IMG/VR virus record: IMGVR_UViG_3300034071_002803
Span: 1 to 58,047 of that record
Length of the DNA: 58,047 nt
Direction: 5' to 3' (one strand)
From: a virus
Shown: positions 11,874 through 43,716 of the stretch, one piece after another
Layout: every line of letters begins with the position of its first letter
Numbering within the stretch: the first letter of the stretch is position 1
Translations under genes and position numbers: made by a program
Notes under the pieces: generated by a model
Seen by the model: only the letters and a program-made list of their open reading frames with translations
Database searches by the model: none
What the model was told of the DNA's origin: nothing

Positions 11874-12827
11874 TTATTTGAATATATCCTTGCTTGGGTT
11901 AAAGCCTGTTTCTTTAATATACTTCACTCGCCATTCTCTTTGCTTTTCGTTGGATATAGTGAAATCTAAACTTGCAAGGTAATCTGCGTCAAGCCATTTT
12001 GCGGGCTTGAACAAGCCGGGGTATTTTCTCACAAGCTTTTCGCATGCTTCGTTTCTTTGCTCTGTTCTTTTTGTTTTGCCCTCAGCCTGCAAGCCACCAG
12101 GCATCTCGCCATATAGCGGCGCATCAAGAAGTAGCCATTGGTTGGTAAGCACTTTTCCATATACAAGCATGCATTTTGCCCAAAGGTCAACATCGTCCAG
12201 CTCGATGCTGTCATCAAGGGATATTCTTCGATCTTTTTTTATCAGCTGAAATGCTATCGGGTGCCTGCCCCAGTGCCACTTTGATTTCTCCCACCCCTTG
12301 ATCAGGTAAGGGTTTATTCCGTTGATCCAGTCCTCATCAGTCTCAAGCGTTGAGACAGCTGCCATTGAGTTAATCCCACAATATCCAATTTTTTCTTGAT
12401 CGCAGATAGAAATCATTTCCATTATCATTTTCTTGCCATCTTCGCTGTCTGGAGTGTGCGACCATAGATCACCGTATTCTTTTCTTCGTTTAATTTTTGG
12501 AAGGGTTGTTTTTGTCCAGTAGTGCTCTGGAACTACCGACCTAAATGTAACAATGTCGTCATCCAGGAAGAGCGCCCACTCCCCATCCTCAAGGGTTTCA
12601 TATATAAAATTCTGCTGTCTGACTTTTCCATTTCCTGGCCAGCCAGCCCTTACGCCAGAGACAATAATCTTAGCATTTGCCTTTATGGCTGCGTCCCTAT
12701 AAAGGTTTGCCTCATCTTCACTATGCAGCACAAGGAATTTTTCAAATCCCTGAATGCCCGGCGCATTAAGGGTAAAGCAAAACTCAGATCTTGCGTATGA
12801 AAAAATGAAAACCTTGGGCAAATTCAT
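11874..12827 (-). CDS. glycosyltransferase, TAGT-like GT-A fold
   Basis: The first strand KVFIFSYARSEF and the metal-binding WALFLDDDIVTF (D89-D91) indicate a GT-A glycosyltransferase whose layout resembles the TAGT at 7620 more than typical family 2 enzymes. GDLWSHTP and LDDSIELDDVDLWAKC may shape the acceptor pocket. The start codon sits at the loop edge of a perfect 10-bp hairpin (12812-12836) and lacks a visible ribosome-binding site, so expression may be limited. It is the first gene of the sugar operon after SSB. The acceptor is unknown. Confidence 0.78.
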   Translation of the reverse strand: MNLPKVFIFSYARSEFCFTLNAPGIQGFEKFLVLHSEDEANLYRDAAIKANAKIIVSGVRAGWPGNGKVRQQNFIYETLEDGEWALFLDDDIVTFRSVVPEHYWTKTTLPKIKRRKEYGDLWSHTPDSEDGKKMIMEMISICDQEKIGYCGINSMAAVSTLETDEDWINGINPYLIKGWEKSKWHWGRHPIAFQLIKKDRRISLDDSIELDDVDLWAKCMLVYGKVLTNQWLLLDAPLYGEMPGGLQAEGKTKRTEQRNEACEKLVRKYPGLFKPAKWLDADYLASLDFTISNEKQREWRVKYIKETGFNPSKDIFK

Positions 12828-17397: not shown

Positions 17398-17524
17398 TCT
17401 TTTTCTTAACCTCCGCTGTTGATGCCTTCTTTGCGGCATCTTCTGCTCGAACCAGTCTACACCCAATACAAAAACAGGGTTGAATGTGCGACTTTGGGCC
17501 TTCTGTCTTTGGCAGCTTTGCCAT
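17366..17524 (-). CDS. small Cys/Lys-rich protein, 52 aa
   Basis: The ATG at 17524 overlaps the portal stop by one base (TAATG), the junction style used throughout this genome. The peptide has a CFCIGC cluster in its centre and a Lys-rich C-terminal tail (KKASTAEVKKKNVKQ). It could bind a metal. It is short, but its position and coupling argue that it is translated. Confidence 0.6.
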   Translation of the reverse strand: MAKLPKTEGPKSHIQPCFCIGCRLVRAEDAAKKASTAEVKKKNVKQLSGETK

Positions 17525-19722
17525 TATTCGTTATCGAGCTGACGGACAACCTTCCCGCTCCAAGACCACCCAGCGTCTCCGCCCCATAGCGCCCAGGCAA
17601 TTCTGCCGTTGCTTGGGTACCCGTCAGAGCCAGGGGCCCAGCCCTTACCCTTCTTGTCTACCTCATGGCGAGCAAAATAAGCATTCATTTTTCGCACTCT
17701 TGGAGCAGTCATTCGGTTGCCAACCAGCATTCTTGCCGTAGTCTGACCAGGGCCAATTCCGCCGCGACCAAACTCCTTGCGCCAATCAAGTCCGCGCTGC
17801 GCTTCCTTCCTGACAGACTCTGGGACATCAAGGTTTGCAGCAGTTTTATCAAGTTTTACATTTTCTGAGTTTGTAACCTTGCTGATGCCAAGCTTTTTAT
17901 ACTCCTCGCGAACAGCGCTATTATTTTCAATTGCCTCAACAACGCTGCGGCTTCCTAGTATTTTGCTCATCTTATATTTCTTCCACTGCAATTCAGTACC
18001 TGCCGGGAAGTCGCTAAGGAATATCTCGCTATGCGGAATGTCGTTTGAATCAAGCCAAGACTTAGTTTCCTCCAGCCGCTTAATGTTTCTAGCGCTAAGG
18101 ATATAAATGTCATGATCCATTGACTCGGTTCGCAGATGCTCAACAACCGCTTCGTTTACTTTTCCGCCGTCCATGTCAATTGTTCCATCAATATCGCAAA
18201 CTATTACTGGATCTCCAGCAGATTTCTTCCCCTTGGATGGTCGCTGGTTTGGCGCCATCTCTGGGTTATTTACCGGGTTGACCATTTGTGCCCCCTGCGG
18301 AGTTGGCTTCATTTTTGCCGGCGGGGTCTTTGGCGGGGTTGGCTTGCCGCCCTCTGTCGGAGTAGGCGCTCCGCCTTCTGGCTCTGGCTCTGGCTCTGGC
18401 AGCGGGAATTCACCAAGAACCCTGCGTCGCAACTCAATCTCGTAAAGACTTAGTGGCATATAGCCCTGGGGCGTTGGAATCCAAACATCGTCCCCAAGCT
18501 CCCCAACGCCCTCCATGCCCCTTTCCTTAAGAGCTTCATTAAGGCGCATCCACGGCATACCAGCCATTGAGGCCTTGTAGTAGCTTGAAATTGTGTCCAT
18601 GCTTGCTCGTCCAACGTCTGTGAATGAAAACCTTAGCTTGCGGTCATAGCGCCATACAATTTCTCTGGTGATGTATTCGGCAATCAAGTCAAGAAGTGGC
18701 GCGATACCAACATCTTGAGTGAAGCCAGCGCCAACTTCGGCGGTGCTCCTGTTCACATCAAAGCTAATGCCAATATCCTGCGGCTGAACACCAAAGACGG
18801 CACAAATTTTTCTGGCAAGGTAGACCTGCCACTCCATAAACTGCATGTCCCTGTTTGAAGAGGCAAGCGGCATCCATTGAATGCCCTTTGCGCCGCCAGT
18901 GATTGCGATCTGGCTCTTGCCTGCAATCTCTGCCTCCCAGTAAGCCTTAAATGAATCAACCTGATCTGCACGAATGCCCTCGCCGAGGTTAAGAATTCCC
19001 GGCGGAACAGCCTGCTTTACCGTTTTGGAGTTGTAATCAGCAGCGGCAAGATCCGCCTCAATGGTATCGGCAAGAACCTCAAGCGGAGAAAGACCGATTG
19101 GGCTATATGTGACTGGGTTTGCCATAATGACAACCATCTCATCGTTTCTATACGATGCAACAAGCTCACCAGTTTCCGCAGTGTGTTCGTAATATCGCGG
19201 CTGATTTGGCTTAGTGCCATCCCACTTTGCATCAAACGAGATAAGTCCGGCGTCCTTCGGCCAAAGATTGGCAATCGGATCAACCATTGACCCGGGCTTA
19301 AGCTTTGCCCCGCGCTTCATTTCAATCTCAATAGCCCCTTGGTCCAAGACAAGGATGTCTTCAACAATTGGTTCAATAAACGAACGCCAGGAGTCGCCTC
19401 TCTGGTTCGGGTTTCTCAAGAGCAACTTGACTCGGTTTGACTCAATTTCGTTTGCTGCCTCGCCCACCCAGTCAGCTGAAACAATGTCCCATTTTGCGCG
19501 GCTAATCTGTGTCCTGCGGAGGTTGATTGCGGCGCGAAGCCAAGGGTTGCTTCGAGACCACCGGCGGAGCTGTGAGACGCTACGCTTCTGTAGCTGCCCA
19601 GTGCTTACAGCGCCACGGGCGTAGGGGGAAATATCAAAATCTGGAATAACGCTTGGCTCGCTATTCTTCTCGGCGCCACCGCCAAAGATTCGCTGAAAGA
19701 GACTTGGTCGCTGCTCTGCCAT
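17524..19722 (-). CDS. portal protein fused to a HAD-like domain and a C-terminal domain
   Basis: Residues 1-435 match HK97-type phage portals (WLRAAINLRRTQISRAKWDI, GLSPLEVLADTIEADLAA, VFGVQPQDIG). A Pro/Glu/Thr linker (436-500) follows. Residues 504-615 form a HAD/polynucleotide-kinase-type phosphatase domain: VIVCDIDGTI (D510, D512), ILSARN and a late Lys, but motif IV reads AIENN where an acidic pair is usual, so activity is doubtful. Residues 632-732 (VPESVRKEAQRGLDW ... GRIAWALWGGDAGWSW) are a domain seen in other phage head proteins. The portal forms the dodecameric DNA channel. It is on the opposite strand from the protease and capsid genes. Confidence 0.88.
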   Translation of the reverse strand: MAEQRPSLFQRIFGGGAEKNSEPSVIPDFDISPYARGAVSTGQLQKRSVSQLRRWSRSNPWLRAAINLRRTQISRAKWDIVSADWVGEAANEIESNRVKLLLRNPNQRGDSWRSFIEPIVEDILVLDQGAIEIEMKRGAKLKPGSMVDPIANLWPKDAGLISFDAKWDGTKPNQPRYYEHTAETGELVASYRNDEMVVIMANPVTYSPIGLSPLEVLADTIEADLAAADYNSKTVKQAVPPGILNLGEGIRADQVDSFKAYWEAEIAGKSQIAITGGAKGIQWMPLASSNRDMQFMEWQVYLARKICAVFGVQPQDIGISFDVNRSTAEVGAGFTQDVGIAPLLDLIAEYITREIVWRYDRKLRFSFTDVGRASMDTISSYYKASMAGMPWMRLNEALKERGMEGVGELGDDVWIPTPQGYMPLSLYEIELRRRVLGEFPLPEPEPEPEGGAPTPTEGGKPTPPKTPPAKMKPTPQGAQMVNPVNNPEMAPNQRPSKGKKSAGDPVIVCDIDGTIDMDGGKVNEAVVEHLRTESMDHDIYILSARNIKRLEETKSWLDSNDIPHSEIFLSDFPAGTELQWKKYKMSKILGSRSVVEAIENNSAVREEYKKLGISKVTNSENVKLDKTAANLDVPESVRKEAQRGLDWRKEFGRGGIGPGQTTARMLVGNRMTAPRVRKMNAYFARHEVDKKGKGWAPGSDGYPSNGRIAWALWGGDAGWSWSGKVVRQLDNE

Positions 19723-19949
19723 TAAATCCCCCTAATACTTCTTCGAATAGCGCTTCTAAATGTGTCGTCAGCCATCCACTTGTTAACAGAATCCCGAAAC
19801 TCTGGGAGGGTCATATTAACAACCTGATGCCCCTTGTTGTATCTGATCGTATTGGCGTTGATGTACCTAATCCAATACCTTGGGACAGCAAAGGTTCCGT
19901 CTTTGAATTCGACTACAATGGTAGACGATGCGTCAGGAATTGTGCTCAT
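19722..19949 (-). CDS. hypothetical protein, 75 aa
   Basis: The stop overlaps the portal start by one base (TAATG) and the start lies inside the end of the upstream gene. The chain has a beta-rich first half (TIVVEFKDGTFAVPRYWIRYI) and a helical end (PEFRDSVNKWMADD). Because it is tightly coupled to the portal gene it may be a head assembly factor, but there is no direct evidence. Confidence 0.65.
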   Translation of the reverse strand: MSTIPDASSTIVVEFKDGTFAVPRYWIRYINANTIRYNKGHQVVNMTLPEFRDSVNKWMADDTFRSAIRRSIRGI

Positions 19950-20439
19950 CTTCAGAATCTACCTGCTCAAGCTCCTCAAGGACTCCAGACAAAATGTCGT
20001 CTGGGCTTTCATCTGGCTCATCATAAAGGTCTTCTTCCTCTTTTGCAATAAGCTCAGAAAGTAGCTTGCGGTACTTCTTTTCTTGTGGAACACTCATCCT
20101 TGACCTGTGCAAATCCGCATAACACCAATGGCAAACTTTGTATCTCTTTTGACCCTTTGCCCTTGGGACTATTGGCTCTGGGTAAAGTTCTTTTACTAGG
20201 TGGTTTGGTCCGGCCATAATTCCACATGCCGCGCATCTTGGGTGGGCGGCTTCAAGGTCCTTATATCTAGCCACCACTGGGGCAATGGTTTTCTGGAGTC
20301 TCAAAAGAGACGAGGCAAGCTCTCGGACTTGTGCCTCGTGATGATTTATCTGCGAGCAAAGCGGGCACGGATTTGCGCCATCAACGGGCGCTCCGGTTGT
20401 CTCTTCTTGCTCGTTATCAAACATAGTGTCATCTACCAT
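19933..20439 (-). CDS. zinc-finger-like protein, 168 aa
   Basis: The start ATG 20439 lies 6-7 bases after a -10 box, so the mRNA is probably leaderless; a start six codons upstream would precede the RNA start. Three cysteine pairs occur (CPLCSQ, CAACG, CHWCYADLH), with His nearby, which fits zinc binding. A helical middle (VRELASSLLRLQKTI) and a strongly acidic C-terminus follow. It is the first gene of the leftward portal operon. The function is unknown; a small-terminase-like role has no direct support. Confidence 0.7.
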   Translation of the reverse strand: MVDDTMFDNEQEETTGAPVDGANPCPLCSQINHHEAQVRELASSLLRLQKTIAPVVARYKDLEAAHPRCAACGIMAGPNHLVKELYPEPIVPRAKGQKRYKVCHWCYADLHRSRMSVPQEKKYRKLLSELIAKEEEDLYDEPDESPDDILSGVLEELEQVDSEDEHNS

Positions 20440-20455
20440 TGTTACAATATAGCAC
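20436..20455 (-). promoter_or_regulatory. left arm of divergent promoter (leaderless, leftward)
   Basis: This 20-bp arm is the perfect inverted copy of 20566-20585. Read leftward it contains an extended -10 (TGC TATATT) followed six bases later by the ATG at 20439. No good -35 box is present, which suits an extended -10 promoter. Confidence 0.65.
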
Positions 20456-20565
20456 ATCGGAAACTATTGTTTATAAAACTGAATATTTAATAAATCATTT
20501 TTACTGTAAAAACAAGTGTAGTATTTTTGAATCTTGACTTTACATAATCAATAGGTTCATTATGT

Positions 20566-20585
20566 GTGCTATATTGTAACAATGG
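20566..20585 (+). promoter_or_regulatory. right arm of divergent promoter (rightward)
   Basis: The arm has an extended -10, TGC TATATT (20567-20575), inside GTGCTATATTGTAACAATGG, identical to the reverse of 20436-20455. Transcription should begin near 20582, at an ATG, and read into the protease, capsid and tail genes. Confidence 0.65.
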
Positions 20586-20626
20586 CGCTAAGGGCGCCTG
20601 TGGTAAAACCACCATATAAACATTGA
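20582..20626 (+). CDS. possible 14-residue leader peptide
   Basis: An ATG six bases after the -10 box opens MALRAPVVKPPYKH and stops at 20626, where the ribosome-binding site (AGGGAG) of the protease begins. It mirrors the leaderless start on the left arm. It could be a translated leader or a chance frame created by the symmetry. Confidence 0.35.
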   Translation: MALRAPVVKPPYKH

Positions 20627-20636
20627 GGGAGCTAAA

Positions 20637-22325
20637 GTGGATTTCAAGCTTTACACCACGGCACTCAAGGCGTACACCGCCGACAACGGCGACCTTTATG
20701 TTCGGGGAACAACCTCCTCTACCATCCGCGACCTTCATGGCGACGAGATGACCCTAAACGCGCTGCACACAATGCGTGATACTGCCAAAAATAATATGAC
20801 CATTTGGCTTAACCATAATTACAATGTTCCTGACGATATCTTTGGCTCCGTATCAGACGCCTTCATTGAGAAGCGCATGGACGCAGCTACTGGTCAAGAA
20901 GTTTATGACCTTGATATCGCTATTCGGGTTGTCGGCGAAGACGAGAACCCACTTGCAATGAAGGCATACCGCGCTATTAAGCGTGGCGTCAAGCTTGGCT
21001 TGTCCATTGGCGCCCGAGTGGAAAAGGTTTCAAAGCGCAAGGACAATAACGACCAGGAAACCTATGTTATTGACAGCGTTCGACTCCTTGAGTCGTCAAT
21101 CGTTGGAATCCCCGCCAATCAGCGCTCATATCTTCAGAATGCTCTTAAGAGTGTTCGTGGTGGGGCTGGTAATCTTCCGGACATTGATGAGCTCCTCGAG
21201 GAGACTAAGTCCGCTGAGGGAAGATTCAAGGTTGGAGATATGGTCACTTGGGGTTCAAGTGGCGGTGACGCAACTGGCAAGATCACAAAGATTGTCCAAG
21301 AGGGCAAGCTTGAGGTTCCAGATTCGTCATTTACTATCGAGGCTGATGAGGACGATCCGGCAGTCCTTATTCGCGTTTACCGAGACGCAAAGCCATCAGA
21401 TCGACTTGTTGGGCACAAGATGTCCACTCTTCGAGCTGCAAAGTCTTTTGACGCATCTGCCGAAGCGTTTACTGTAGAAACAGAAACTGAAGAGGAGACA
21501 TTTGACATGGATGAACTAGATCAGAAGAAGACCCGTGTAACCGTTACGGTTAGCACGGATGCGGAGGCCAATAACGAAGCCGCCGCTGCTGTCGCACCCT
21601 CCGCTCCGGCGGCGGCGGCCCCCCTTGAAGAGGTAGAGGCTGCTGCGCCAGAGGTAGAGGTTGAGCCAGTCGTTGAGGAGCCAGCCGTTGAGCCTGAAGT
21701 TGCAGAGCCAGTGGTTGAGGAGCCAGCGGCAGAAGAGCCAGTTGCTGAGGAGCATCCGGCAGCAGCCCCAGAAGTTGAACTAAGTGACTTGCTAGTACTT
21801 GCATCAGCCGACGAGGTTGTTGAAAAGGCTGGCGCATCGGTAGCTGAGCGACTTGCAATTGTTGTCAAGGAACTTAAGTCAATTGCCGATCAGTACGCTA
21901 AAGACGAGAGTTCAAATGCAGACTCAATCATGAAGATTGTTGATGCACTCAATAAGGTGCTCGGCACGGAAGAGTCCTCACCGGCTTCTGAAATGCCAAG
22001 CAAGAGCGCCGATTCTACCGAGATTACTGCTCCAGAAGGCAATGGCCTTGTGGAGTTGGAGTCACTTGCTAAGTCTGCACTGGATGCAGCCATCTCAGCA
22101 CAGCAGGAAGTTGCCGCGATTCGCCGCGAGTTTACTGAGCTGTCGGACGAGAAGGCCAAGGTCGAGGGCGAGCTTGCCAAGGCGCTTGATGTTGTCGGTC
22201 GGTTGATGAACCTACCCGGCGGCCGCAAGGAAATTGAAACAACTGGGACGAAGGGCTCGACGGCAGTTTCTGCCCCGTGGCTTTCACCCTACATTCAGCG
22301 TGTCCTAGACACAGAGGAGAAGTAA
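20637..22325 (+). CDS. HK97-type prohead protease with Tudor-like domain and scaffold region
   Basis: GTG 20637 follows AGGGAG. Residues 1-180 are an S78-type prohead protease: His60 in IWLNHNY and Ser123 in LGLSIGARV are the catalytic candidates. Residues about 195-270 (FKVGDMVTWGSSGG ... DDPAVLIRVYRD ... LVGHKMSTL) match the HVA1/DUF2945 Tudor-like domain often fused to phage head proteins. An acidic Pro/Glu/Val/Ala-rich stretch (about 310-380) and a coiled-coil end (AAISAQQEVAAIRREFTELS) probably act as scaffold removed on maturation. It is coupled to the capsid gene by TAATG. Confidence 0.9.
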   Translation: MDFKLYTTALKAYTADNGDLYVRGTTSSTIRDLHGDEMTLNALHTMRDTAKNNMTIWLNHNYNVPDDIFGSVSDAFIEKRMDAATGQEVYDLDIAIRVVGEDENPLAMKAYRAIKRGVKLGLSIGARVEKVSKRKDNNDQETYVIDSVRLLESSIVGIPANQRSYLQNALKSVRGGAGNLPDIDELLEETKSAEGRFKVGDMVTWGSSGGDATGKITKIVQEGKLEVPDSSFTIEADEDDPAVLIRVYRDAKPSDRLVGHKMSTLRAAKSFDASAEAFTVETETEEETFDMDELDQKKTRVTVTVSTDAEANNEAAAAVAPSAPAAAAPLEEVEAAAPEVEVEPVVEEPAVEPEVAEPVVEEPAAEEPVAEEHPAAAPEVELSDLLVLASADEVVEKAGASVAERLAIVVKELKSIADQYAKDESSNADSIMKIVDALNKVLGTEESSPASEMPSKSADSTEITAPEGNGLVELESLAKSALDAAISAQQEVAAIRREFTELSDEKAKVEGELAKALDVVGRLMNLPGGRKEIETTGTKGSTAVSAPWLSPYIQRVLDTEEK

Positions 22326-23557
22326 TGTCTGAACAGCGAGAGCGGCTGGAAGACGTCCAGAAGGGACTTGAGTCCCTTGCCGACGCCCCAGCTTTGGTGG
22401 GACGTGATGTTGCCACCAAGTCGATTGACGTTGCCGACGCATATGCAACGCAGCGCGAGCTTCGCAAGAAGTTTACAAAGCTAAACACGGCTGATCTTAA
22501 CGAGATGCTTGATATCCAGGCAGCTCGCGAGACCGGCAAGCAGGCTGATAGCGATGTGCTTAACCGCCTTGCTATGGCTAACCCAAATATCGCCAAGCTT
22601 CTTGATTCAAGCGGCGGCGCGGCTCTTATCCGTCAGGACCTTGAGCCAATCCTTTACGCTTTGTTCGTAAAGAAGTTCCCATTCTTCGAGCGCATTCGTA
22701 AGGAAGGGGCAAACGGCCTCGTCCATGCGTTCAACCAGCAGACCGCTTATGGCGATGCAGTGTTCCAGACCGAGACCGGAACGGTCACAGATGACTCGAA
22801 CACCTATTCACGCCAGACGACCAACGTGGCCGTTCTTGCAACCCGACGCGGTATCACGCTGAAGTCGCAGTTTGCCATTAGCCAGGGCGGCGCTCCTGGG
22901 CAGCAGGGCCTTTCAACTGAGCTTGCAGGTGGCGTAACCGCCATTGCCCACAAGCTTCAGAAGACCTTGTTCCAGGGTAATGCCACGACTTCTGCATCAG
23001 CTGGTGCAGCCACCGAGCTCGGCGCGTTTGACGCGAACGGGTTTGATGGTCTTCGCAAGGTCCTTGGCGCGGCGGCTGGCACTGCCCAGATCGTCAACAA
23101 GGGCACGGCTTCGTATTTGTCAACGATTAACAGCAACGTTGCGGAAATCCTCAACGCTGGTGGTAATCCTTCGGCACTTCTCGTTGCCCCACAGGACTAC
23201 GCTGGTCTTGTGAATGAGCTCACGAACCTCGTTCGCTACAATGCCCCGTCGCAGGTCGACCAGGCTGCTGGCGCAACGTTTGGTTCAGTCGTGACCGCCG
23301 CTGGCGCACTGCCAATCATGGCTGTGCCTGGTGACTCGATCGGCTCGTACGTTGTAAGCTCGGTCAGCTATCGCGACATGTATGTCGTTGATGAGTCGAC
23401 TTGGTCGATGCCGTACCTTGGTGCGGACTCGATCACGACGCTTGAGATCCCAGTCGGTGTAAACGGTTCCCTTTCGCGCCTGTACATCATGTATGTGATG
23501 TTTGGTCTTGCGAACAAGGCTCCGCAGTTCAACGGCAAGATCCGAGTAACAGCCTAA
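22325..23557 (+). CDS. major capsid protein (HK97 fold)
   Basis: ATG 22325 overlaps the protease stop and has GAGGAG ahead of it. The 410-residue product begins with a helical delta-like region (MSEQRERLEDVQKGLESLAD), removed by the protease in related phages. The remainder shows HK97-family features: FVKKFPFFERIRKEGANG, a TAYGDAVFQTETG loop, and a C-terminal half with ALLVAPQDYAGLVNELTNLV, ALPIMAVPGD and YRDMYVVDES. It forms the icosahedral shell. A strong hairpin follows the gene. Confidence 0.93.
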   Translation: MSEQRERLEDVQKGLESLADAPALVGRDVATKSIDVADAYATQRELRKKFTKLNTADLNEMLDIQAARETGKQADSDVLNRLAMANPNIAKLLDSSGGAALIRQDLEPILYALFVKKFPFFERIRKEGANGLVHAFNQQTAYGDAVFQTETGTVTDDSNTYSRQTTNVAVLATRRGITLKSQFAISQGGAPGQQGLSTELAGGVTAIAHKLQKTLFQGNATTSASAGAATELGAFDANGFDGLRKVLGAAAGTAQIVNKGTASYLSTINSNVAEILNAGGNPSALLVAPQDYAGLVNELTNLVRYNAPSQVDQAAGATFGSVVTAAGALPIMAVPGDSIGSYVVSSVSYRDMYVVDESTWSMPYLGADSITTLEIPVGVNGSLSRLYIMYVMFGLANKAPQFNGKIRVTA

Positions 23558-28658: not shown

Positions 28659-28676
28659 TAACAAGGAGACGCGCAC

Positions 28677-29732
28677 ATGTTTACTCTCGGCTCTGGTCGA
28701 CTTTCAGTAGCTAGGTGGTATGAGGGCTCACGAGTTGAAACCCCAGCCACCATCACCGCTGTCGGAACTGGCACTGGTGGATCTAACGCTGCCGGGACGT
28801 ACTATGTGCGCGTCTCCGCTAGAAACGCATACGGCGATGGCACGCCGACTGCCTCAACGGCAGTAACAATTACCTCTGGTCAGGGTATTAAGATTGACTG
28901 GACCGCGCCAGCAAGTGGCGCAACGCCAACACACTATGACATCTATATCGGTACTGTTGCTGGCGAAGAGTCACGGCAGGCTGCTGTTGCTGCCCCGACA
29001 GTAACCTATACCAGGACCACGGCTATTGTTCAGGGTCAAAAGCGCGCAGTTATAACTGGCGTCTCTGGCGACGGCACAACTGTTACATATACTGCTGCCA
29101 ATAATTTTGCAGCCGGGCAGCTGGTAAACATTAGCCAGGTTATTCCTTCGGCATACAACCTTAAGAATGTAACCATTGCAACAGCTTCTACAACTCAGTT
29201 TACTGTTACCAATGCGGCTACTGGAACCTACGAGAGCGGTGGACTTGCCGAAGTTGGTCAGTCTGCCCGGTATGTTGGGCTGATTGACATTGGGGAAATC
29301 GGCGGTGATGTCGAGTACGACATCAACTACCAAGAGCGAGAGTTCCTGGGTCAGTTCAACTTTCCAATCTCCAAGCAGTTCTTCGGCGGCAAGTCAGAAA
29401 TCCGCGTTCGCCGTATTGAAATGGACATTCTAAATCTTGAGCTTGTTCAGCAGGGTGGATACCAGTACGATGCAGCAAATGCAAAGCACAGCCTTGATCC
29501 GCTCCCAAATAATGGCCTCTTGCGAAAGGGTCAACCGCTTTATGTTCAGCTTACACATACCAGAAGTGACGACACAAGCAAAACAGTAACCATCACTTCT
29601 CCAAAAGCCTATCTCATCAACTTCACTATTCCGTTCACGCGAGAGGATATTGCCGTGATGGACTTTGACTTTATGTTGACGTATGATAGCACTAAGCCCA
29701 GCGGCCAGTTGGTGCTAATTAGTGGTAGCTAA
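28677..29732 (+). CDS. tail tube protein, paralogue 2 with inserted Ig/fibronectin-like domains
   Basis: The core matches paralogue 1 (GEIGGDVEYDINYQEREFLG, LYVQLTHTRSDDTSKTVT, PFTREDIAVMDFDF). About 180 extra residues (20-200) are inserted after the first strand. They include a fibronectin-like part (GTYYVRVSARNAYGDGTPTA ... PTHYDIYIGT) and a second beta module (VTYTAANNFAAGQLVNIS). The insert probably projects from the tail surface. Two tube paralogues could alternate in the tube or be used in different ratios. The same second module recurs in the tail-tip protein. Confidence 0.85.
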   Translation: MFTLGSGRLSVARWYEGSRVETPATITAVGTGTGGSNAAGTYYVRVSARNAYGDGTPTASTAVTITSGQGIKIDWTAPASGATPTHYDIYIGTVAGEESRQAAVAAPTVTYTRTTAIVQGQKRAVITGVSGDGTTVTYTAANNFAAGQLVNISQVIPSAYNLKNVTIATASTTQFTVTNAATGTYESGGLAEVGQSARYVGLIDIGEIGGDVEYDINYQEREFLGQFNFPISKQFFGGKSEIRVRRIEMDILNLELVQQGGYQYDAANAKHSLDPLPNNGLLRKGQPLYVQLTHTRSDDTSKTVTITSPKAYLINFTIPFTREDIAVMDFDFMLTYDSTKPSGQLVLISGS

Positions 29733-42843: not shown

Positions 42844-43002
42844 TCGTCCTCTCTTTTGTTCTGGAGTACAACAATGGCCGCTAGCGCAACAAACAAATGC
42901 GAATTTGATCAGCATTTGCACTCCGTCGCAATTAAACGATATATCAAAACAAGCTGGAAATCCACAAGGTTAAAATTTACAAGTGTCTATCCTTGCGGAA
43001 TA

Positions 43003-43011
43003 TGGTAATAT
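43003..43011 (+). promoter_or_regulatory. extended -10 promoter, leaderless start
   Basis: TGG TAATAT (43003-43011) lies six bases before ATG 43018, which has no ribosome-binding site. This is the same leaderless geometry as at 20575 and 27617. Confidence 0.5.
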
Positions 43012-43017
43012 CTGTTT

Positions 43018-43716
43018 ATGGAGATTTTTGTACTAGCCGTTCTTTTTGGCTCTCTTTGGTTTAGCCAGTGGTTTTTTAGGAAGTTTTGGTTTCATCGGCA
43101 ATCTCTTGACATTGATGAAATAAAAAGACTTCCGGCTGATATTGTTTGCTCTCCAGTTGACGGGGTAATTGTTTACAAGAAAAGGGTTGATAACGGTCAA
43201 GCTTTTTCAATCAAGCTGAATAAACAGATTGGAGAGCCCTGGACTGGTGGCCAGAGCGGCTGGCTCATTGGGATATACATGAGTGTTTTTGACCGTCATT
43301 TTGTCATTGCGCCAACATCTGGCACAAACACTTCTCTTTACTTTAAAACCGACAAAAACTTGCCAATGATGGATCTTTTTGAGTATGTGCGGTTTTATGC
43401 ACTATCAATTACAAGCAAAAGAATGGCTGAAAACGCAGAGGAATATGTTGACAACAATGAACGCCTAAAGCTGGATTGGAGCTCTGGGATTAAAATGCTT
43501 GTAATAGGTGATGCTAATGTTAACAAGATTGACCAGGAGCCTGGCCTAGGTGACGGGGGAAGCATTTGGGCACGAGGGGACAAGCTTCTCTTTATTCGCC
43601 GTGGCAGCCAATGCGATATATTTATCCCAGACAGCGTCGGATCACCGATTAAATCAATTGCGGTTGGCAGAAAGGTAAAAGCTGGAACGCCAATTGCCGC
43701 AGGATGGAGGGGATAA
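43018..43716 (+). CDS. phosphatidylserine-decarboxylase-like protein
   Basis: An N-terminal hydrophobic helix (1-22) anchors the protein. SPVDGVIVY (45-53) and SVFDRHFVIAPTSGT (89-103) match the SPADG and LxxxDYHRxHxPxxG motifs of phosphatidylserine decarboxylases. Near the C-terminus IRRGSQCDIFIP (G196, S197) stands where the self-cleaving Gly-Ser-Thr triad that makes the pyruvoyl cofactor is expected, but with Gln in third place. The family decarboxylates phosphatidylserine to phosphatidylethanolamine. Whether it acts on lipid here or on another amino-acid conjugate is unknown. Confidence 0.75.
   Translation: MEIFVLAVLFGSLWFSQWFFRKFWFHRQSLDIDEIKRLPADIVCSPVDGVIVYKKRVDNGQAFSIKLNKQIGEPWTGGQSGWLIGIYMSVFDRHFVIAPTSGTNTSLYFKTDKNLPMMDLFEYVRFYALSITSKRMAENAEEYVDNNERLKLDWSSGIKMLVIGDANVNKIDQEPGLGDGGSIWARGDKLLFIRRGSQCDIFIPDSVGSPIKSIAVGRKVKAGTPIAAGWRG

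Follow-up and report, generated by a model that had tools for sequence, protein, structure and literature searches.

Genes on either side of the divergent region

The DNA analysed here, referred to as the window, is a virus contig record of 58,047 bases that is possibly a fragment. Two sets of genes point away from each other across positions 20436-20585 (Table 1). Leftward lie the gene of a 168-aa protein, a 75-aa ORF and then the portal protein, and rightward the prohead protease is followed by an SU10-type major capsid protein and a head-tail adaptor. A first-pass annotation of this DNA had placed the portal on one side and the protease and capsid genes on the other, and these identities were confirmed by profile matches (PF04860; PF04586; PF17236). 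Eighty loci containing relatives were taken from IMG/VR, and more than 50 of them share the same divergent arrangement. No relative of the capsid protein was detected among about 50,700 named phage records and none of the 168-aa protein among named phages, and the portal gave distant matches only. The 168-aa protein is encoded beside the portal in all relatives having that region and carries three CxxC pairs and an invariant core, PEPxxPRAxGQKRYxVC..C. Searches against Pfam, PHROGs and PDB profiles returned no family above cut-off for this protein, and its fold prediction was poor (pTM 0.34).

Table 1. Features in and around the divergent region. Positions are those of the window; promoters, leaderless starts and the leader peptide are predictions.
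Feature	Position	Strand	Remarks
Portal protein gene	17524..19722	-	PF04860, E 6e-41
168-aa Cys-rich protein gene	19933..20439	-	First gene of the portal-side operon
Left arm: extended -10 (TGC TATATT), GTAACA, ATG; predicted leaderless promoter of the 168-aa gene	20436..20456	-	-10/ATG spacing kept in 23/23 clusters
Predicted -10 hexamer TATATT of the leftward promoter	20446..20451	-	Weak -35 TAAACA upstream, 16-nt spacing
AT-rich spacer, halves alike in inverted orientation	20457..20564	.	27/37 aligned
Sigma70-like promoter candidate TTGACT-N18-CATTAT for the protease	20534..20563	+	Immediately 5' of the right arm
Right arm: extended -10 (TGC TATATT, 20570-20575), GTAACA, ATG 20582-20584	20565..20585	+	Identical to the left arm; in no relative
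14-codon open frame MALRAPVVKPPYKH, potential leaderless leader peptide	20582..20626	+	Stop inside the protease Shine-Dalgarno
Pair of small hairpins, GGCGC..GCGCC and GTGGT..ACCAC, in the protease leader	20584..20616	+	
Protease Shine-Dalgarno GAGGGAG	20625..20631	+	
Prohead protease gene, GTG start	20637..22325	+	Peptidase_S78, PF04586
Major capsid protein gene	22325..23557	+	SU10_MCP, PF17236

A perfect inverted repeat bounds the region

The left and right arms are exact reverse complements of each other (CCATTGTTACAATATAGCACA / TGTGCTATATTGTAACAATGG) and are separated by 108 nt. The repeat had been described as perfect and 20 bp long; it is indeed perfect, and its length was corrected to 21 bp. 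It is the longest perfect inverted repeat in the window with arms at most 1 kb apart, and the chance expectation for a perfect 21-bp inverted repeat at such closeness is about 4e-6. Read toward its gene, each arm has the layout TGTGC-TATATT-GTAACA-ATGG, in which TGC stands directly 5' of a TATAAT-like hexamer, as in an extended -10 element (TGN followed by the hexamer). Both arms thus contain the extended -10 with an ATG six bases beyond (TGC-TATATT-N6-ATG) that had been noticed at the first reading. A search for the motif elsewhere, proposed at the same time, was run on the 58-kb record and found the arm to be unique, with no further copy even at up to 3 mismatches. The whole of 20436-20585 forms an imperfect palindrome, the spacer halves also being alike when inverted. 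An assembly chimera was ruled out, the gene order on both sides being that of more than 50 relatives.

The left arm is predicted to be a conserved leaderless start

On the minus strand, the spacer GTAACA separates the hexamer of the left arm from an ATG (20439-20437); this codon shares its frame with the 168-aa ORF, whose end is at 19933. Near-identical sequences among the IMG/VR relatives (about 40 distinct) and the window were grouped into 23 clusters of orthologues. TANNNT was found 6-7 nt 5' of the ATG in all 23 clusters, starts having been picked by requiring this signal, with the picked ATG the sole in-frame start in most sequences. A Shine-Dalgarno-like motif preceded the start in none of the 23. 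Across the clusters the hexamer always has T1, A2 and T6, and its middle and the 6-7 spacer bases vary freely; the T and the G of the extended -10 are each present in 15/23 clusters on this side. The locus L070 was left unanchored by the script; its intergenic sequence is almost the same as that of L039, which fits.

Control starts on the same contigs behaved differently. The TANNNT signal preceded 0/24 distinct starts of the protease, 0/20 of the portal and 0/13 of the capsid gene, and a Shine-Dalgarno sequence was present before 24/24, 19/20 and 13/13 of them, respectively (56 of the 57 distinct starts). The prediction of a genuine leaderless start at 20439 in the left arm, kept across relatives, is therefore strongly supported, in line with the first-pass annotation, which had the gene start at this ATG. 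The start of the 168-aa gene should be 20439 and not the upstream in-frame ATG at 20457, since the leaderless signature lies at 20439 and 20457 precedes the predicted -10 element.

TANNNT about 12 bp before the start is the signature of bacterial leaderless genes (PMC3160421), which are common in Actinobacteria and Deinococcus-Thermus (PMC3160421; -10-adjacent ORFs, PMC12340547). The left arm resembles them in having the -10 element 6-7 nt before the ATG, no Shine-Dalgarno and a spacing kept across orthologues. It differs from them in belonging to an uncultivated tailed phage, in having a mirror copy across a divergent intergenic region, and in that its start is predicted from sequence.

The right arm is specific to this lineage

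The right ATG had been said to open a 14-codon leader ending at the ribosome-binding site of the protease. Such a frame is present as described, its TGA (20624-20626) overlapping GAGGGAG ahead of the protease GTG at 20637; it is not conserved in relatives, and the right ATG opens no conserved protein-coding gene. At the same place in relatives we found no exact inverted repeat of at least 11 bp, and the ungapped inverted similarity of the two promoters was at background level or reflected local hairpins elsewhere. No relative carries a leaderless-type start (TANNNT-N6/7-ATG) in the last 120 nt before the protease. Since neither the inverted repeat nor such a start occurs there in any relative, the right arm is, on these comparisons, lineage-specific, and it lies at or just past the predicted start site of a more usual protease promoter. 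The earlier proposal of twin leaderless promoters thus holds for the left side, with its 23/23 clusters, and finds no backing from homology on the right, where no relative has the arm.

In the candidate sigma70-like promoter, TTGACT (20534-20539) and CATTAT (20558-20563) form an element that begins 103 nt 5' of the protease start. A counterpart, TTGAC-N17/18-NANNNT, occurs 53-61 nt 5' of the protease in about 23 of 40 distinct relative sequences. The element of the window sits 42-50 nt farther upstream than this counterpart, with the right arm and the small hairpins of the leader taking up the extra distance. The fold of these hairpins was no better than that of shuffled sequences (z -0.69), and an Rfam search gave nothing above any family's own cut-off. 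No -35 element was found at 16-18 nt from the right-arm -10, the nearby TTGACT pairing with CATTAT instead. As a promoter the right arm is a plausible prediction, given its identity with the left arm and its match to leaderless promoters in unrelated phages; it may be a second promoter, an operator or neither.

It is possible, if rather doubtful, that only the left arm is a promoter and that its right-hand copy, passive or operator-like, lies at the start site (-5 to about +16) of TTGACT-N18-CATTAT; the latter would be the true promoter of the protease, and the 14-codon frame would not be translated from a leaderless transcript. The frequency of TTGAC-N17/18-NANNNT before the protease in relatives, together with the window's own version of it, the restriction of the right arm to the window, and protease starts that are Shine-Dalgarno-led everywhere are all consistent with that possibility. 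However, the same polymerase would probably not ignore an exact extended -10 with the -10/ATG geometry of the left arm, and the greater distance of TTGACT from the protease in the window also speaks against it.

In one clade of relatives (L048:3758-3945, L055:1389-1576, L057:3621-3808, L068:2186-2373, L077-L080, L083, L086), conservation within the protease leader is strong over GTAGGAATNAA and GGTGNTNATACGGGACTATCTRCTGACAC; there is little consensus structure, and the two stretches are a possible conserved leader or binding site. In L074 and L089, the intergenic region between the 168-aa gene and the protease is about 400 nt longer (633 versus about 250 nt extracted), apparently through an extra insertion.

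The spacer halves are similar in inverted orientation

When the arms were removed, the inverted alignment of the spacer halves gave 27/37 identities and a score of 34, a score reached by 0.5% of dinucleotide shuffles (p ~0.005), as against 19 for the direct and 20 for the merely reversed control alignments. Folding of the whole region with the arms kept was better than with shuffled spacers (p 0.012). The simplest reading is that the region arose as an inverted duplication of a leaderless promoter module of about 60 bp, whose flanks diverged and whose 21-bp core did not. Confidence in this origin is moderate, since the spacer is AT-rich and the similarity of the flanks is modest there.

A recent template-switch or inverted duplication that left a right side devoid of selected function, so that the mirror layout would be a mutational product only, appears quite unlikely. 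The layout was found in one phage and is absent from all relatives examined, and perfect identity can mean recent copying. Yet the perfect segment coincides with the predicted promoter and start codon, and flanks with 73% identity look much older than a perfect core, an indication that the core has been under selection.

Perfect inverted repeats bounding a short AT-rich stretch could also be recombination sites on either side of an invertible, phase-variable segment. We consider this highly improbable: the repeat occurs in neither orientation in any relative, a PHROGs scan of about 30 proteins of the window recognized no site-specific recombinase, and the repeats themselves would be promoters and start codons, so that inversion would change little.

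Similar promoter cores occur in other phages

A scan of IMG/VR for TGNTATATTGTNACAATG returned 14 loci, most of them probably chance matches, and five of them in one phage group with promoter arrays. These five, on contigs G001-G004, read TTGACA-N17-TGTG[GT]TATATTGTAACAATG with an ORF directly after. Altogether 41 promoters on the four contigs fit TTGAC-N-TGTG-N-TATATT. They all lie on one strand, and in 34 of them the start codon of an ORF of at least 30 codons follows within 14 nt (24 at 6 nt and 6 at 7 nt). They share with the window the core TGTG-N-TATATT-N6-ATG, and the five copies fit the 18-nt pattern of the window exactly. They differ from it in belonging to unrelated phages, with no protein in common with the portal, the protease or the 168-aa protein of the window, and in their strong TTGACA at 17 nt, their single strand and their many repeats. 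Because the 21-mer of the window matches the leaderless core of other phages, a promoter reading is favoured over a phage-specific operator.

The arrays themselves are near-identical repeats of TTGACA-N17-TGTG[GT]TATATT-[AG]TANNA-ATG, placed mostly directly 5' of small ORFs (L192, G003:19000-31500; L193, G002:32500-44500; L194, G004:33000-42000; L195, G001:17000-19990). A 245-aa protein encoded behind one array promoter has 39-48% identity to Synechococcus phage proteins. A scan of bacterial genomes with the full promoter gave mostly ordinary Clostridia promoters lacking leaderless starts, and was uninformative as to the host.

Two further systems were compared with the window. The IMG/VR contigs L196 and L197, from another phage, have a divergent, back-to-back pair of extended -10 promoters, TTGAC-N17-TGTGNTATATT, which share the TGTGNTATATT type of the window and stand at nearly equal separation; unlike the window, they have full -35 elements, no 21-bp identity, no ATG at 6 nt and no leaderless starts. 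In phage PY54, the divergent promoters of cI and cro are reported to give leaderless mRNA (PMC4488713). Divergent phage promoters are common to PY54 and the window, and in PY54 an operator site lies between the genes. In PY54, however, the pair forms a repressor switch whose operator has been mapped and whose Cro is known, whereas in the window the genes belong to structural operons and the predicted promoter cores are exact mirror copies. A literature search that covered subscription journals thinly found no mirrored pair ahead of late or capsid genes, which is weak evidence.

A dyad within each arm

Each arm contains a perfect 11-bp dyad, ATTGTWACAAT, which extends from the end of the predicted -10 element over both start site and ATG, and the centres of the two dyads are 135 bp apart. 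The arms could accordingly be regarded as twin operators bound at these dyads by a phage regulator, possibly looping the 135 bp, with the portal and capsid operons switched together. We judge this unlikely, although it is compatible with one or both arms also acting as promoters. The position of the dyad (ATTGT-W-ACAAT) over the -10 end, start site and ATG in each arm would suit an operator, as would the identity of the 21 bp between diverged flanks. A weak lead comes from some relatives (L065 and L073), whose corresponding intergenic region contains GATTGTTACA-N12-TGTTACAATC, an inverted pair built around TGTTACA. On the other hand, the dyad requires just three matching positions beyond those of the promoter and ATG (1/64), and such a dyad is absent from the leaderless start in most relatives. 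In the 58-kb window, possibly a genome fragment, there is no other exact ATTGTWACAAT and no further exact ATTGTNACAAT, and copies with one mismatch are as numerous as by chance. The earlier suggestion that the symmetry balances portal and capsid expression or binds a regulator remains speculation.

The element TGTTACAATC was also seen conserved 110-125 nt before the protease in L037, L038, L041, L047, L063 and L084, as well as in L065 and L073, and may represent an operator or an extended -10 directed rightward.

A model for the divergent region

Positions 20436-20585 are best explained as a region of divergent promoters that separates the portal-side operon from the protease/capsid-side operon, combining a leaderless start on the left with an active inverted copy on the right; we hold this explanation, taken as a whole, to be somewhat probable. 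For a leaderless gene, the left arm would provide at once the -10 element, the transcription start and the start codon. TGC-TATATT would be read by the sigma70-type RNA polymerase of the host, which would initiate at or beside the A of the ATG at 20439, and the 168-aa protein, then the portal operon, would be translated from mRNA with no 5' leader. The right side would be an inverted copy of the promoter module, with a perfect 21-bp core and diverged flanks, supplying the capsid-side operon with a second, start-proximal extended -10 promoter beside TTGACT-N18-CATTAT. Transcripts from the right arm would begin at the ATG of the 14-codon frame, and because this frame stops within the protease Shine-Dalgarno, ribosomes might move on from it to the protease. 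A more demanding version is rather unlikely: in it both arms would be active leaderless starts, the 14-residue leader would deliver ribosomes to the protease, and both operons would be set together, through the 21-bp cores, by a single regulator or state of RNA polymerase.

The elements of this region are of known kinds; what is unusual is their exact mirror duplication. In a widespread group of uncultivated phages, one gene keeps what is predicted to be a leaderless start next to Shine-Dalgarno-led neighbours, which suggests that leaderless starts of single genes can be under long-term selection in phages. The mirrored copy amounts to a natural experiment on a small scale, with one and the same -10/ATG core standing before a real gene on one side and before a Shine-Dalgarno-led operon on the other.

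Other sites in the window

An ATG at 12827 with the same motif was not counted, as it sits in a terminator-like hairpin. A 27-nt inverted repeat of 78% identity lies at 28665-28691 / 28791-28817, and its end 14 bp (GGAGACGCGCACAT/ATGTGCGCGTCTCC) are perfect. Its first arm holds the Shine-Dalgarno and ATG of a 351-aa ORF, and its second arm lies inside the same ORF. Positions 42929-43020 form a second divergent junction, in which rightward TGGTAATAT-CTGTTT-ATG opens a 232-aa ORF at 43018 that is apparently leaderless, and leftward TGATATAT precedes a 612-aa ORF on the opposite side.
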